From contig OPYK01000003.1 of NCBI GenBank assembly GCA_900343135.1, forward strand, positions 124,001 to 188,000: a DNA stretch of 64,000 nucleotides. Direction: 5' to 3'. The notes below the pieces were generated by a model that was given only the letters and a program-made list of their open reading frames with translations, did not search any database and had not been told where the DNA came from. Positions 53,053 through 60,210 of this stretch are shown in pieces (the stretch's first letter is position 1; each line of letters begins with the position of its first letter). The translations under genes were made by a program, and so were the position numbers. The DNA is from Atopobium massiliense. GTDB taxonomy: Bacteria; Actinomycetota; Coriobacteriia; Coriobacteriales; Atopobiaceae.

Positions 53053-53193
53053 TTAGATGCTTACACACAAACGCTTGCGACCCTTGGCGCGACGACGTGC
53101 AAGCACCAAACGGCCACCCTTAGTAGCCATGCGAGCACGAAAACCGTGTGACTTAGCACGCTTCGATTTATTTGGTTGATAAGTGCGTTTCAT
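53053..53193 (-). CDS. rpmH: ribosomal protein bL34
   Basis: A 46-residue protein starting [19 protein letters not shown] and ending [10 protein letters not shown], the unmistakable L34 sequence. About 40 percent of residues are Arg or Lys. It opens the leftward operon rpmH-rnpA from the origin and has a strong promoter. Confidence 0.98.
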
Positions 53194-53256
53194 AATAAAA
53201 CCCCTTTATAACAATAACCACAAGTAATTATCTATATTGCTCTGACAAGCTAAAAA

Positions 53257-53285
53257 AGTATAGGTGTTTGTGCAGGTGTAGTCAA
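53257..53285 (-). promoter_or_regulatory. promoter of rpmH-rnpA
   Basis: On the minus strand TTGACT (53280-53285), a 17-bp spacer and TATACT (53257-53262), about 65 bp upstream of the rpmH start. A close match to the housekeeping consensus. Confidence 0.75.
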
Positions 53286-53739
53286 TTGTTTTCTTCTATA
53301 AACGCATATTTTTATATGTGCGTATCGTTTCATCCGTAGTGTTGTGATTATTGTTTGAAGAAAACCCACATCTCTCACGCTGTGCAGACAACAGGCACGC
53401 AGCAATACACGCTTGAGGCGCTATGTTTCATGTGTACCTATGGTTGGTTATTCAATGTATAGATACTGCAAACTGTGCGCATACATCGTGAAATTTACAA
53501 GGTATTACCTGCACGTTTATTATTTCTCTTTCATGTTTTATTCACCATTAAATCCTGTTATTCACCATGTTATTAACATTTGTTCATCAATTGTTGAAAA
53601 CTTTCATACGTGTTTATTTCAGTTTGAATACTTTTGAACAAATGTTGAACAATTGTTGAAAACTTTACCAGACACTCAGCAACTATTCGTGTAAGATAAA
53701 CATACGCTACTGACTAACACAAACACATAAAGGGGGATT
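53286..53739. other. left part of the replication origin region (rpmH side)
   Basis: An AT-rich 454-bp stretch without genes between divergent rpmH and the GHKL-wHTH gene. It carries TTATTCACC twice (53538-53546, 53558-53566), TGTTGAAAA twice (53592-53600, 53654-53662) and TGTTGAACA (53643-53651). Their complement TTTTCAACA is a variant of the DnaA box TTATCCACA. A 16-bp unit AATTGTTGAAAACTTT is exactly repeated at 53589-53604 and 53651-53666. A likely -10 TAAGAT for the next gene is at 53692-53697. Origin assignment rests on the divergent gene arrangement and these boxes, and was not tested by GC skew. Confidence 0.6.
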
Positions 53740-54801
53740 ATGGCGCATGCGTTTTATCCGTTTGTAGAAAACAGAGATAACGAACAACAACATACCAGCT
53801 CAACAGCTACACCACAGCCAAACAGTGCGCTTACCCCCACATATGCAGCGCGTATTGCAGTTGTTGACACCCCGTACGCGCAGCCGCGCGTGGTTGTCAT
53901 CGACCCGTGTAATACCCGCGAATACCTCGAAGAAATTACTGCAACAGTGGCAAAACTCGCCAGTGAGCAGGGAAGTTCTATTCCATTTATGGTTATTCGC
54001 GAAATTGTTGAAAACTTTATTCATGCATATTTTGTTGAGCCAACGATAAGTATTCTTAACCACGGCAACACGATTCGTTTTGCCGATCAGGGGCCAGGTA
54101 TAAAAGAAAAGGAAAAAGCCTTTGCGTTTGGAACCACCAGCGCAACCCAAGACATGAAAAAATTTATACGTGGTGTGGGCTCAGGATTGCCATATGTACG
54201 TGCATATATGGAACAAACACACGGAAGTATTGTGGTAGAAGATAACATCGCAGGTGGCACTATTGTTACGCTTAACGCGCATACAAGCGAGGAAACACCC
54301 GATAAAGAAAAACAATCTGGTGCACAGATTGCGCCGGCACAGGTACCACAGGTACAACAAATGCAACAGATGCAGCAACAACAGCAGCAACCATATACGC
54401 AGCCTATATATACACAACCGATATACGCGCAGCCAACATACGCAACAAATCCATACATAAATGCTGCAGCTGAAAACCCTGTTTATACAAACCCTGCAAA
54501 CACAGGTCATCAACCTGCACAAATGCCGGTACAACAGCCTAGTATGCAGCCCGCGCAACAAGCTGTAACACCAGGATTGTCAGAACGTGCAGTGTGTGTA
54601 CTTCGTGCGGTGTGCACTTATGGCGCAATTGGTCCAAGTGAGCTTGCGCGAATGTTTGGATTTTCTCAACCAACGTGGTCACGTGAATTACAAGCGCTTG
54701 AAACTATGGGTGTGTTACACCGTGCAGCAAAAGAGCAAAAGCGCACGTTAACACAGCTTGGGCAGGATTTTGTGCGCCAGCACAATATTACACCGCTTTA
54801 A
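53740..54801 (+). CDS. GHKL-type ATPase fused to a winged helix, adjacent to oriC
   Basis: A 353-residue protein with three parts. Residues ~50-180 are a Bergerat-fold ATPase: N-box REIVENFIHA (Glu88, Asn92, the Glu/Asn pattern of gyrase and SpoIIAB rather than of histidine kinases), G1 ADQGPG (Asp116, Gly118, Gly120) and a GVGSGLPYVRAYMEQTHGSI glycine lid. Residues ~195-275 are a flexible Gln/Pro/Tyr linker with QPIYTQPIYAQPTY repeats. Residues ~278-350 are a winged helix (LSERAVCVLRAV, PSELARMFGFSQPTWSRELQALETMGVLHR). No His-phosphotransfer domain is present, so it is not a histidine kinase. RBS AAAGGGGG. It takes the place between rpmH and dnaA. Function unknown: an ATP-dependent regulator of initiation, segregation or transcription is an inference. 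Confidence 0.8.
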   Translation: MAHAFYPFVENRDNEQQHTSSTATPQPNSALTPTYAARIAVVDTPYAQPRVVVIDPCNTREYLEEITATVAKLASEQGSSIPFMVIREIVENFIHAYFVEPTISILNHGNTIRFADQGPGIKEKEKAFAFGTTSATQDMKKFIRGVGSGLPYVRAYMEQTHGSIVVEDNIAGGTIVTLNAHTSEETPDKEKQSGAQIAPAQVPQVQQMQQMQQQQQQPYTQPIYTQPIYAQPTYATNPYINAAAENPVYTNPANTGHQPAQMPVQQPSMQPAQQAVTPGLSERAVCVLRAVCTYGAIGPSELARMFGFSQPTWSRELQALETMGVLHRAAKEQKRTLTQLGQDFVRQHNITPL

Positions 54802-55013
54802 GGGCGCGGGTGTTGAATGTGCTTTGCAGCCGCTACATGTTATACACTGCATGTTATACACTGCACGGCGCGTGGCATGTGCGTATAATGATAAACACCA
54901 TACCGGTTAGCACTTAATACAAACCATACGGTACAATAGCCAAACAGATATACGTTATTCATAGTACAATATCAAAAACCAACAGGTATACGCACTAGGT
55001 AAAGGAGTTTGCC

Positions 55014-57092
55014 GTGAAAGTTGCACCCAATAGTAATGGCATGCAGGCGTCATCAAATGAATCTGACGTCATACTACAACCTGCGTTTATACTGTGGGAA
55101 GACTGTGTTGAATTTTTAGATGATGACGGGTATCTTCCGTCAATTCTTTCTATTCTTCGTAACTGTGGTATAGGTGAACTTAGTGATGATTCACTTACAC
55201 TTTATACGCCTTATACGTTTACTCGTAAAAAAATACGGGAACATCTCGGTGTTATTGAAGGGTATTTGCAAGAAGTTGCCGGACATTACGTTCATATTAT
55301 TATTTCGCTTGTGTCTCCAGAAGAAGCTGCTAAGTTTCCAAAGTTGCAGGATTATGCCTATGGTCCACAGGTAGATGATGGTGATGTTAATCAAGAAGAT
55401 GTAAACGATGATAACGATAATGATGACGAGCAAGCGTATCTTCAAGAAAAAGCTGATTTGGATGCTGAAGATAACGCAATAAAGCAGTCTTATGATGAAC
55501 ATTTATCTAGCACAAACAGCAAAAACACCACGAATGCTGGAAATGCAGACTTTTTTGCGGATTACCTGCATTTTCTCGAAACAACAAACATATTACAACA
55601 AGGAAATACGCTTAATGCTGAAGAAGTAAACCAGCAATATTTGGCATATAGAGCACGCATGGAAGCGCAGACACAAGCAAACGCAAAAAAGCAGCATAAA
55701 CCAATGCGCCGCGTAAAAACATCAACCGATGCCAAAACTGCCACACCTACTAAAAAAAGTGTAGGTTCATCTAAAAAAAAACCGACTACTAGGCTTATAA
55801 GTGTTGAAACACGTGTAACAAAAGATGAGTTATTGCGCGAAGAACAGCGGCACGCGGGTATAGATGCAGGTATAACCGCAGGTAATACAGGTAATGTAGA
55901 TAATGCAGACGTCTCGTACACCTACGCAGCTGTAAATTCGCAGGAACCCGCGCAAACGGGCGTGAAAACGCATGTAAACACGCAAAAAAACCCATATCAA
56001 GAGGCAGTTCCAAATGTTGTTGGTTCAAAACTTACTTTTGATAGGTTTGTCCAGGGTGAAGAAAACATGTTTGCGTTTCAAGCGGCGCAGCAGGTAGCAT
56101 GTGGTATTAATAGCCAGTCGTATAATCCACTCTTTATTTATAGTAAAAGCGGCCTTGGTAAAACACACCTACTTCGTGCTATTCAAAACTACATTATTCA
56201 AAACGATCCCGAGCGTGTGTGCGTATATAAAACAGCAACAGAGTTTGTGGATGAATATACACGTGCATGGCAGTCGATAGAACATAAAGGGGCACTGTAC
56301 GAGCGCTACAAGCATATTGACGTGCTTATTATCGACGACATACAAAACATGCGCACGGCAGCAGGTACTATTAAGTTTTTCTTTGATACGTTTAATACAC
56401 TTATGGCAAGTGGTAAACAAATTGTACTTGCTGCTGATAGAAGCCCGCAAGAGCTACAGATGGGCGAGAGTAAGTTTGATGAGCGTGAAACAAGCCGCAT
56501 GGATTCGGGTGTTACGGTAACCATTCAGGTGCCTAACTACGAGCTAAAATATAACCTTATTAACAGCTTTTACGATTACATGCACCATGACGCAGCAAAT
56601 AATGCTGAGAAAGATATGCTTGGCACCATAACGCCTGAACAGAGGGCATATATGGCGCGTTTAGCAGGTAGTAATATCCGTGTTATTGAGGGGTTTGTTC
56701 ACACCTGTTTAATGCAGGCAGGCCGTCTTAAACACCTTAAAAAACAGCTTACCGATGCTGATATTTTAGCAATTGCCGAGAAAAAATGGCCAAAGCAACA
56801 AAAAACGGTAACAATGGAGCAAGTACAGCATGTCATTGAAATGCGATATGGTGTAGATCATAGCGATCTTATTGGAAATAAGCGCAATAAGGAGCTTATG
56901 GAGCCGCGCCATGTGTGCATTTGGCTTATTCGTGAGCTTACTGATAGTACACTTGCCGATATTGGTGATAAGTTTGGAAATCGCACGCACGCCACTATAA
57001 AACATAGTATTACCTGGGTAAATGCTAAAAAGAAAGAAGATCGTTTGTTTTATGACAGGCTTGTGTCTATAAAACAAGAAATACAGGAGTAA
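55014..57092 (+). CDS. dnaA: chromosomal replication initiator DnaA, divergent and enlarged
   Basis: A 692-residue initiator, well above the usual 440-520. Domain I is about 21-102. Domain II is expanded to ~230 residues with an acidic Asp/Asn run (about 121-140) and Lys/Thr-rich parts. Domain III starts at LTFDRFVQGEENMFAF; Walker A is SKSGLGKT (377-384) and Walker B LIIDDIQNM. Domain IV has IGNKRNKELMEPRHVCIWLIREL and NRTHATIKHSI, where most DnaA proteins read GxRDHTTVxHA. These changes lie in the DNA-reading signature. The GTG start follows AAAGGAG. Position before dnaN-recF-gyrBA makes the identity secure despite divergence. Confidence 0.95.
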   Translation: MKVAPNSNGMQASSNESDVILQPAFILWEDCVEFLDDDGYLPSILSILRNCGIGELSDDSLTLYTPYTFTRKKIREHLGVIEGYLQEVAGHYVHIIISLVSPEEAAKFPKLQDYAYGPQVDDGDVNQEDVNDDNDNDDEQAYLQEKADLDAEDNAIKQSYDEHLSSTNSKNTTNAGNADFFADYLHFLETTNILQQGNTLNAEEVNQQYLAYRARMEAQTQANAKKQHKPMRRVKTSTDAKTATPTKKSVGSSKKKPTTRLISVETRVTKDELLREEQRHAGIDAGITAGNTGNVDNADVSYTYAAVNSQEPAQTGVKTHVNTQKNPYQEAVPNVVGSKLTFDRFVQGEENMFAFQAAQQVACGINSQSYNPLFIYSKSGLGKTHLLRAIQNYIIQNDPERVCVYKTATEFVDEYTRAWQSIEHKGALYERYKHIDVLIIDDIQNMRTAAGTIKFFFDTFNTLMASGKQIVLAADRSPQELQMGESKFDERETSRMDSGVTVTIQVPNYELKYNLINSFYDYMHHDAANNAEKDMLGTITPEQRAYMARLAGSNIRVIEGFVHTCLMQAGRLKHLKKQLTDADILAIAEKKWPKQQKTVTMEQVQHVIEMRYGVDHSDLIGNKRNKELMEPRHVCIWLIRELTDSTLADIGDKFGNRTHATIKHSITWVNAKKKEDRLFYDRLVSIKQEIQE

Positions 57093-58652: not shown

Positions 58653-59861
58653 ATGAGTTTGGTGTTACAACAGCTGCAACTGTATAACTGGAAAAACATT
58701 GCTTCAGCCACGCTTGAGTTTTCACCGTGTGCAACCATTTTGTATGGTCCAAATGCCGCAGGTAAAACAAATATTATTGAAGCTATTCATCAGTGCACAA
58801 CAGGGGTAAGTTTTAAACATACCCCCGCTGCAGCCTACATATCGCAAGGTGCATCACGGTGTAGCGCCACAGCAACGCTTATTGACGCTGCGCGTACTAT
58901 TACCCTTGCATGTAAAGTTGAAGCTCCTACACCTATAGTTTCATCTGAGAATGTACCAACGCCGCGTGCCAAACGCACACTGTTTGCAAATGGCAAACCT
59001 GCGCGACCATACACACTCTCGGCATATGCACCGTCCATTGTGTTTACCCCCGATGATCTGCAGTGCATTAAACAATCAGCAAAAGCGCGTCGTGATGAGT
59101 TTGATGTATTTGCAAAAACAATCACCCGCGAGTATCAACACATATACACTACCTATACGCATTGTGTTGAACAAAGAAATACCCTCCTTAAGCAGGGGAT
59201 ATCACATGATGTACGTGCAGCATGGGATGAGTCGTTTATGCGCGGCGCAGCGACGCTTATGTATGCGCGCATGCGGCTTCTTGAGCGACTTTATACCCAT
59301 ATAACCGATGTATATCGCACGATTGCACCCAGTGAAACGCTTACCTACCAATATGTGCCATCATGGCTGCGTTTGCCCGCGCACACACCACTAACAATAC
59401 AAAAATCAGCTCACACACCCTTCTTACCTGGTGAAACACCCACAAAAGATGAGTTATACACCCTTTTTTCAACGCTTCAACCACAAGTACAAAACCTAGA
59501 AGCGCAGCGCATGCAAACACTATTAGGTCCGCAGCGCGACGACGTGCAATTTTTTATTAATGGTATGGATGCACGCACCTGCGCTTCACAAGGCCAGCAG
59601 CGCTCAATAATTCTTGCTATAAAAATTGCGCAGGTACTGCTCACCCAGGAAATCCACGGATTTTACCCCATCTTGCTGTTAGATGATGTTATGAGTGAGC
59701 TTGATGAGCTGCGCCGTAATACTATTTTTTCACTCATACATAATGGCATCCAAGCTATAATTACAACCACAAATCTTGGGTATTTTTCACCCGAAATACA
59801 AGCGCGTGCAAAGGTTGTTGATTTATATGACGCAAACACACCCATCAAACATATATCGTGA
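58653..59861 (+). CDS. recF: DNA replication and repair protein RecF
   Basis: A 402-residue SMC-like ABC ATPase for gap repair. Walker A is GPNAAGKTN, the signature CASQGQQRSIILA and Walker B PILLLDDVMSELD, with the D-loop. It starts QLQLYNWKNIASATLEFSP, a usual RecF opening. It overlaps the DUF721 gene by 35 bp. Confidence 0.95.
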   Translation: MSLVLQQLQLYNWKNIASATLEFSPCATILYGPNAAGKTNIIEAIHQCTTGVSFKHTPAAAYISQGASRCSATATLIDAARTITLACKVEAPTPIVSSENVPTPRAKRTLFANGKPARPYTLSAYAPSIVFTPDDLQCIKQSAKARRDEFDVFAKTITREYQHIYTTYTHCVEQRNTLLKQGISHDVRAAWDESFMRGAATLMYARMRLLERLYTHITDVYRTIAPSETLTYQYVPSWLRLPAHTPLTIQKSAHTPFLPGETPTKDELYTLFSTLQPQVQNLEAQRMQTLLGPQRDDVQFFINGMDARTCASQGQQRSIILAIKIAQVLLTQEIHGFYPILLLDDVMSELDELRRNTIFSLIHNGIQAIITTTNLGYFSPEIQARAKVVDLYDANTPIKHIS

Positions 59862-60210
59862 GCTGGGCGCACACCAGTATAAACCACGCCGCCCGCAAAG
59901 CCTTAAAGATATTCTGCGCGACACGTTGCAAAATCCGCAGGTAAACAGTAAGCTTACCGAAGCGGCACGCGCGCACCACGCACTATTTAGCATTCTTTCA
60001 AGCACTGAGCGCGCGCATGTGTGTGGCGTATTTGTGTTTAAGCATGCGCCGTATACCCCCCGTAAGCTCGGTGTTTATATCGATTCCTCACCCATGCTTG
60101 CCGATTTTACCATCAATAAAGAGCTTTACATTGAGAAGCTTGCTGCGGTTGGGTTTGCGGTGTGTGATATTGAGTTTAAGCATTCAAAATACCCGCCGCG
60201 TCGTTCATAA
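59827..60210 (+). CDS. DUF721 protein, DciA-like candidate helicase loader
   Basis: A 127-residue protein in the actinobacterial recF-DUF721-gyrB position. DUF721 proteins are related to DciA, the widespread ancestral loader of the replicative helicase DnaB. The conserved beta core (KLGVYIDSSPMLADFTINKELYIEKLAAVGFAVCDIEFKHSKYPP) is visible; a basic segment near the N-terminus (QYKPRRPQSLKDILRD) could bind DNA. ATG 59827 overlaps the end of recF. Confidence 0.82.
   Translation: MTQTHPSNIYRELGAHQYKPRRPQSLKDILRDTLQNPQVNSKLTEAARAHHALFSILSSTERAHVCGVFVFKHAPYTPRKLGVYIDSSPMLADFTINKELYIEKLAAVGFAVCDIEFKHSKYPPRRS

Follow-up and report, generated by a model that had tools for sequence, protein, structure and literature searches.

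Organization of the rpmH-dnaA region

Analysis of the window, by which we mean the whole 64,000-nucleotide stretch of Atopobium massiliense DNA, showed a gene encoding a GHKL ATPase joined to a winged helix (hereafter the GHKL gene) between a divergent rpmH and dnaA, and the coordinates of the three genes agree with the placement given in an earlier note on this DNA (Table 1). The sequence AAAGGGGG lies immediately 5' of its ATG start. In the product of the downstream gene, DnaA, a very long acidic, low-complexity segment separates the N-terminal domain from the AAA+ domain. Further along the window, an ORF of the DUF721/DciA type (59776-60210) sits between recF and gyrB, which we take to be DciA-like and likely a helicase operator.

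Table 1. Coordinates of genes, intergenic features and protein domains at the locus (window positions).
Feature	Position	Strand	Characteristics
rpmH (L34), divergent flank	53059..53193	-	
Intergenic region rpmH-GHKL, probably oriC plus the operon promoter	53194..53739	.	DnaA-type boxes in this gap at 62 of 64 loci
32-nt inverted repeat	53569..53663	.	arms 53569-53600 and 53632-53663, 81% complementary
Gene of GHKL ATPase - linker - winged-helix protein	53740..54801	+	ATG start, 353 aa
GHKL (Bergerat-fold) domain, residues 34-184	53839..54291	+	HATPase_c 3.2e-9; pLDDT >90; DIP2311 Z 15.4, SpoIIAB Z 11.4
N-box E88-x3-N92-x2-H95-A96	54001..54027	+	N92 and H95 invariant; Glu88 retained by 114 of 116 distinct family members
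G1 box D116-QGPG-I121	54085..54102	+	D116, G118 and G120 invariant
ATP lid and G2 box, residues 131-151 (GTTSATQDMKKFIRGVGSGLP)	54130..54192	+	G131, G145 and G149 invariant
Low-complexity Q/P/Y linker, residues 187-276	54298..54567	+	24 Q and 14 P in 90 residues
C-terminal winged helix, residues 277-349	54568..54786	+	pLDDT >90; MarR-type 3nrv match
GHKL-dnaA gap, 212 bp	54802..55013	.	two TTATACACT sites (54840-54848, 54854-54862)
dnaA, 692 aa, long N-terminal/linker region	55014..57092	+	Bac_DnaA 1.8e-46, Bac_DnaA_C 3.7e-20

The inverted repeat upstream of the GHKL gene stops about 75 bp 5' of the start codon and contains two TTTTCAACA-type DnaA boxes, both on the minus strand (53592-53600 and 53654-53662). 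It is a degenerate version of a 31-nt inverted repeat that is perfect in a related Olsenella (L003:4878-4959), where it carries TTTTCAACA boxes and lies 5' of the GHKL gene. No strict TTWTNCACA box occurs in the rpmH-GHKL gap of the window, and the GC skew of the window makes no clean switch near this gap; because the boxes are degenerate and the skew is uninformative, the origin of the window was placed mainly by gene order and by comparison with relatives. When DnaA-type boxes (TTWTNCACA or TTWTCVACA) were counted with related genomes included, they were present inside the rpmH-GHKL gap at 62 of 64 loci, and at all 29 of the loci marked as deep. Coding sequence carried them at a density of 0.2 per kb, compared with 4.7 per kb in this gap and 3.8 per kb between dnaA and dnaN. 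The rpmH-GHKL gap of Rubrobacter xylanophilus carries TTTATCCACAGCCTGTGGATAAACCTGTGGATAAA.

Domain architecture of the predicted protein

Pfam searches placed HATPase_c, above its cut-off, on residues 84-179, while winged-helix families matched residues 279-347 weakly and under the cut-off. An AlphaFold2 model built from a 47-member alignment had pLDDT values above 90 at residues 31-180 and approximately 281-345, separated by a linker that is predicted to be disordered and lies mostly below 60; N-terminal to the GHKL domain the model shows about 30 disordered residues and nothing more. The N-box reads E88-IVE-N92-FI-H95, G2 corresponds to G145-VGSG-L150 and G3 lies around G172-G173, and the residues N92, H95, D116, G118, G120, G131, G145, G149 and G173 are invariant among the 47 diverse members. 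The Pfam match, the invariant residues, the model and the fold matches together identify the N-box Asn, a DxGxG G1, a GxGxG G2, a G3 and a Bergerat fold, that is, the features of the GHKL superfamily, and bear out the GHKL fold, the Glu88/Asn92 N-box and the complete G-boxes that the earlier note had read from the letters.

The C-terminal winged helix proposed in the same note was likewise recovered, with a match to the MarR-type structure 3nrv at Z 12.4 and an rmsd of 1.1 over 70 residues. Family and fold matches assign it to the MarR/TrmB type, and a T-x-x-R-(D/E)-L motif in the recognition-helix region is conserved across most members. The Gln/Pro/Tyr tether between the two domains is present in the window as described, but is lineage-specific: in most deep relatives the linker is short and unrelated, and the total length of deep members is about 220-310 residues.

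Distribution and inheritance of the family

The window protein had a match in 178 of 199 Coriobacteriia genomes; of the 172 good genomes among them, 164 were positive. The one scan of genome contigs relied on sequence patterns taken from this protein. The whole-genome survey covered Actinomycetota. Of 296 genomes drawn from the whole phylum, 119 contained the family by profile, usually as a single copy; every positive genome gave a match to the family with an E value of 6e-42 or lower, and the remaining matches above the 1e-15 limit were second pieces only. Among the positives is a genome (G237) that we take to be R. xylanophilus, as its rhodopsin is identical over 219 residues to PDB 6kfq, a structure from this organism. 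A single-contig genome of 9.2 Mb and many others in the 296-genome sample gave no family match. In a few lineages (L093, L094 and L095) the rpmH-dnaA region is uninterrupted but the GHKL gene is missing, which shows that the gene is not universally required and can be lost; lineages without it still have dnaA and DnaA boxes.

Pairwise distances of the GHKL proteins co-varied with those of DnaA (Mantel r 0.82 for 80 members, 0 of 1000 permutations; r 0.62 for the deep members alone), which fits common descent rather than mobility of the family. A phage origin was rejected, no relatives being found among viral contigs scanned with one pattern, and a plasmid origin was also rejected, the search giving a single weak partial match to a Streptomyces ATP-binding protein. 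Chance as the source of the ORF is excluded, because sequence, architecture and position are conserved across several deep lineages. The protein is best explained as the window's copy of an undescribed Actinomycetota family that is usually single-copy and vertically inherited, and consists of a GHKL domain followed by a C-terminal winged helix.

Linkage to dnaA

The earlier note had made its interpretation depend on whether relatives keep the gene at the origin, and the linkage proved nearly complete. Among the 119 Coriobacteriia genomes with both genes listed, the GHKL gene adjoins dnaA in 117: it lies directly upstream on the same strand in 107, is adjacent but inverted in 2, and falls at a contig end in 8, where the contig starts near dnaA and the GHKL gene lies near the other end, so that adjacency is inferred across the circle. 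In the other two genomes, the two genes are on separate contigs. Outside the class, 37 genomes were inspected, and the gene adjoins dnaA in all 33 in which the contig is long enough for the comparison, with the order rpmH(-), GHKL gene(+), dnaA(+) wherever rpmH is present. In the closed chromosomes G237, G271 and G378, the GHKL gene runs to the final bases of the sequence and dnaA starts at the first. Local inversions at the origin were observed in four Eggerthellaceae-type genomes: in L035 and L091, the GHKL gene and dnaA are jointly inverted between rpmH and dnaN, and the gene follows dnaA and not rpmH, while in L089 and L090 the GHKL gene alone is inverted.

With the start codons of relatives set by a simple ribosome-site rule, the spacing between the GHKL gene and dnaA in deep lineages is usually 5-30 bp, with a median of about 15 bp. 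This spacing, together with the DnaA boxes upstream, suggests that the dnaA operon begins with the GHKL gene. In Atopobiaceae and Coriobacteriaceae, the gap is typically 60-220 bp and sometimes contains boxes; co-transcription is less clear in Atopobiaceae because of this wider gap (212 bp in the window). The link to the origin is strengthened by the near-zero spacing in deep lineages, the boxes upstream and the joint inversion in two lineages.

A position beside dnaA could also persist through gene dosage or because few rearrangements occur near the origin, and the protein might then act globally, as a transcription factor or nucleoid protein, with a location that reflects ancestral linkage and dosage rather than a role at oriC or dnaA. 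The gene order of the origin region is kept in any case (parAB, rsmG, jag, yidC, rnpA, rpmH), the winged helix is of a generic type and the GHKL gene is missing from a few lineages, all of which agree with such a role. However, the near-zero spacing to dnaA recurs in many lineages, the gene was inverted together with dnaA away from rpmH, and no relocation was seen among genomes of several deep lineages, and we consider this explanation unlikely.

Comparison with known GHKL proteins

No naming model in Pfam or NCBIfam covers the full-length protein, and no literature on the gene was found among open-licence papers. Structurally, the GHKL domain of the window protein came closest to DIP2311 (PDB 3lmm) from Corynebacterium diphtheriae, at 2.6 A across 151 residues, followed by SpoIIAB and histidine-kinase domains. 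DIP2311 and the Rubrobacter protein have the GHKL domain and the winged helix in the same order and align over 208 residues with Z 14.5; the overall rmsd of 9.9 probably results from domain orientation. The domain content of DIP2311 is AlbA_2 - HATPase_c_4 (PF13749) - winged helix. Unlike DIP2311, the present family has no AlbA_2: the window protein matched neither this domain nor HATPase_c_4, and both are absent from the 25 families that ranked highest for the 47 members. Membership in the DIP2311 type was therefore rejected despite the common domain order and fold match. Profile similarity was nearly tied between HATPase_c_4 (91.6%) and the SpoIIAB-type HATPase_c_2 (89.9%), which is why we place the family on a separate branch within the GHKL proteins. 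HATPase_c_4 proteins also differ from it in being patchy in distribution, often multi-copy and unlinked to dnaA. The genome to which the window belongs encodes, outside the window, a DIP2311-type HATPase_c_4 protein broken by a TAG stop (G000:C14:65948-66190).

The comparison with SpoIIAB, GyrB and RsbW suggested in the earlier note confirmed the Bergerat fold and found no GyrB-type transducer. A GyrB/MutL identity was rejected, since no S5-like transducer domain follows the GHKL domain, and a linker and winged helix take this place in both models. A histidine kinase was rejected as well: Pfam gave no HisKA, HPt or receiver match and no DHp precedes the GHKL domain, in agreement with the earlier view that this is not a standard signal kinase.

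The likeness to SpoIIAB and RsbW is closer, and comprises a Bergerat fold without DHp and a Glu four residues ahead of the N-box Asn. SpoIIAB is, however, a single domain with sigma or STAS partners, whereas the present protein has a winged helix and is encoded next to dnaA and rpmH. Of the anti-sigma factor kinase model TIGR01925, no match was obtained in the window protein and only weak ones (best 5.2e-6) in 14 of the 47 members, and no sigma or STAS gene lies beside the GHKL gene, which is flanked by rpmH and dnaA at almost every locus inspected. The missing TIGR01925 match, the extra winged helix and the lack of a sigma or STAS neighbor led us to reject a SpoIIAB/RsbW anti-sigma kinase.

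Another regulator that joins a GHKL domain to a helix-turn-helix module is found in the CapK/CapS system. CapK, a GHKL kinase activated by ssDNA, has the order HTH-STAS-GHKL, and its target is a distinct STAS-wHTH protein that represses defence operons (PMC13373217). In contrast to CapK, the present protein has no STAS and its gene is a chromosomal fixture; a CapK-type kinase was rejected, as no STAS match was obtained within the window protein. A 250-aa ORF elsewhere in the genome of the window (G000:C7:187588-188304) combines STAS with a SpoIIAB-type HATPase, in a VapK-like STAS-GHKL arrangement.

A looser version of these comparisons is a protein kinase of SpoIIAB or CapK type tethered at the origin, in which the winged helix would anchor the protein or sense ssDNA and the GHKL domain would phosphorylate or sequester a partner, e.g., DnaA. 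SpoIIAB ranks with the nearest folds of known structure, the E-x3-N arrangement is the SpoIIAB/gyrase-type N-box, and CapK offers a precedent for an ssDNA-activated GHKL kinase acting on a repressor (PMC13373217). The neighborhood without STAS or sigma genes and the TIGR01925 results argue against such a kinase, as does the presence of a separate STAS-GHKL ORF in the genome of the window, and it seems improbable.

Proposed function

The data taken together are best accommodated by a regulator that binds DNA in response to ATP and acts on the dnaA operon, the adjacent origin or both, to which we assign a probability of about 0.5. In GHKL proteins, a Glu at this N-box position is the general base, and ATP-driven closure of the lid often brings about dimerisation. 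In the proposed mechanism, the GHKL domain would bind ATP and close its lid, and the ATP would be hydrolysed with Glu88 as the base; the nucleotide state, perhaps through dimerisation, would set the binding of the winged helix to DNA in the rpmH-GHKL intergenic region, and this binding would tune the expression of its own operon, hence of dnaA, and/or the access of DnaA to the adjacent origin. The analysis shows the family, its architecture and conserved active site, the position of the gene, its spacing to dnaA and the DnaA boxes; we infer ATP binding and hydrolysis, dimerisation, the DNA target and the effect on dnaA or initiation. Regulation at this site has a parallel in Mycobacterium tuberculosis, where PrpR binds the rpmH-dnaA region, represses dnaA and couples propionate metabolism to it (PMC3982210); the likeness is limited to a regulator at this region, PrpR being an unrelated protein encoded elsewhere.

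A direct replication factor, with the GHKL ATPase remodelling either DnaA or the DNA of the origin or aiding helicase delivery, would agree with the deep conservation in the dnaA operon and with the gyrase/MutL-type catalytic Glu. The absence of a transducer domain, the DciA-like ORF between recF and gyrB in the window, and the persistence of dnaA and DnaA boxes in lineages without the GHKL gene all speak against it, and this role is very improbable. Because some lineages do without the gene, a regulator or accessory factor is more likely than a core replication protein.

Its retention beside the origin and dnaA in several lineages of Actinomycetota makes the GHKL gene a strong candidate for encoding a new protein that would regulate dnaA or the start of replication. 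The dnaA neighborhood is among the best-studied sites of bacterial chromosomes, yet this gene, kept beside dnaA throughout Coriobacteriia (including gut genera such as Olsenella), in Rubrobacter and in several other lineages, yielded neither a family model nor a paper in the searches made. If the protein indeed regulates dnaA or origin firing, it would represent a lineage-wide control that is missing from the Escherichia coli, Bacillus subtilis, Mycobacterium and Streptomyces models, would tie initiation to a nucleotide switch besides DnaA, and would offer a way into the cell cycle of gut Coriobacteriia. More tentatively, and with somewhat more doubt than belief, the family could constitute an unrecognised class of ATP-switched origin/dnaA regulators, encoded by the first gene of the dnaA operon, that predates the split of several Actinomycetota classes and was lost in others; it would then be the first GHKL protein dedicated to the control of chromosome initiation.

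Search for a winged-helix binding site

Two motifs were considered as possible operators. The first, AGATTGTA, is common in the rpmH-GHKL gap, but was discarded as the -10 box of rpmH on the opposite strand. The second, CCTGCAAA, is not claimed as an operator of the GHKL protein, given that it is rare in other lineages and that a similar GCAGGA persists in L095, which lacks the GHKL gene. It is nonetheless enriched in the origin regions of Rubrobacteraceae (L180-L198 and L103), with 19 copies at 13 of 19 loci against 0.4 in shuffles, and flanks the DnaA-box cluster there on both sides, which makes it a putative binding site of a second protein at the origin.
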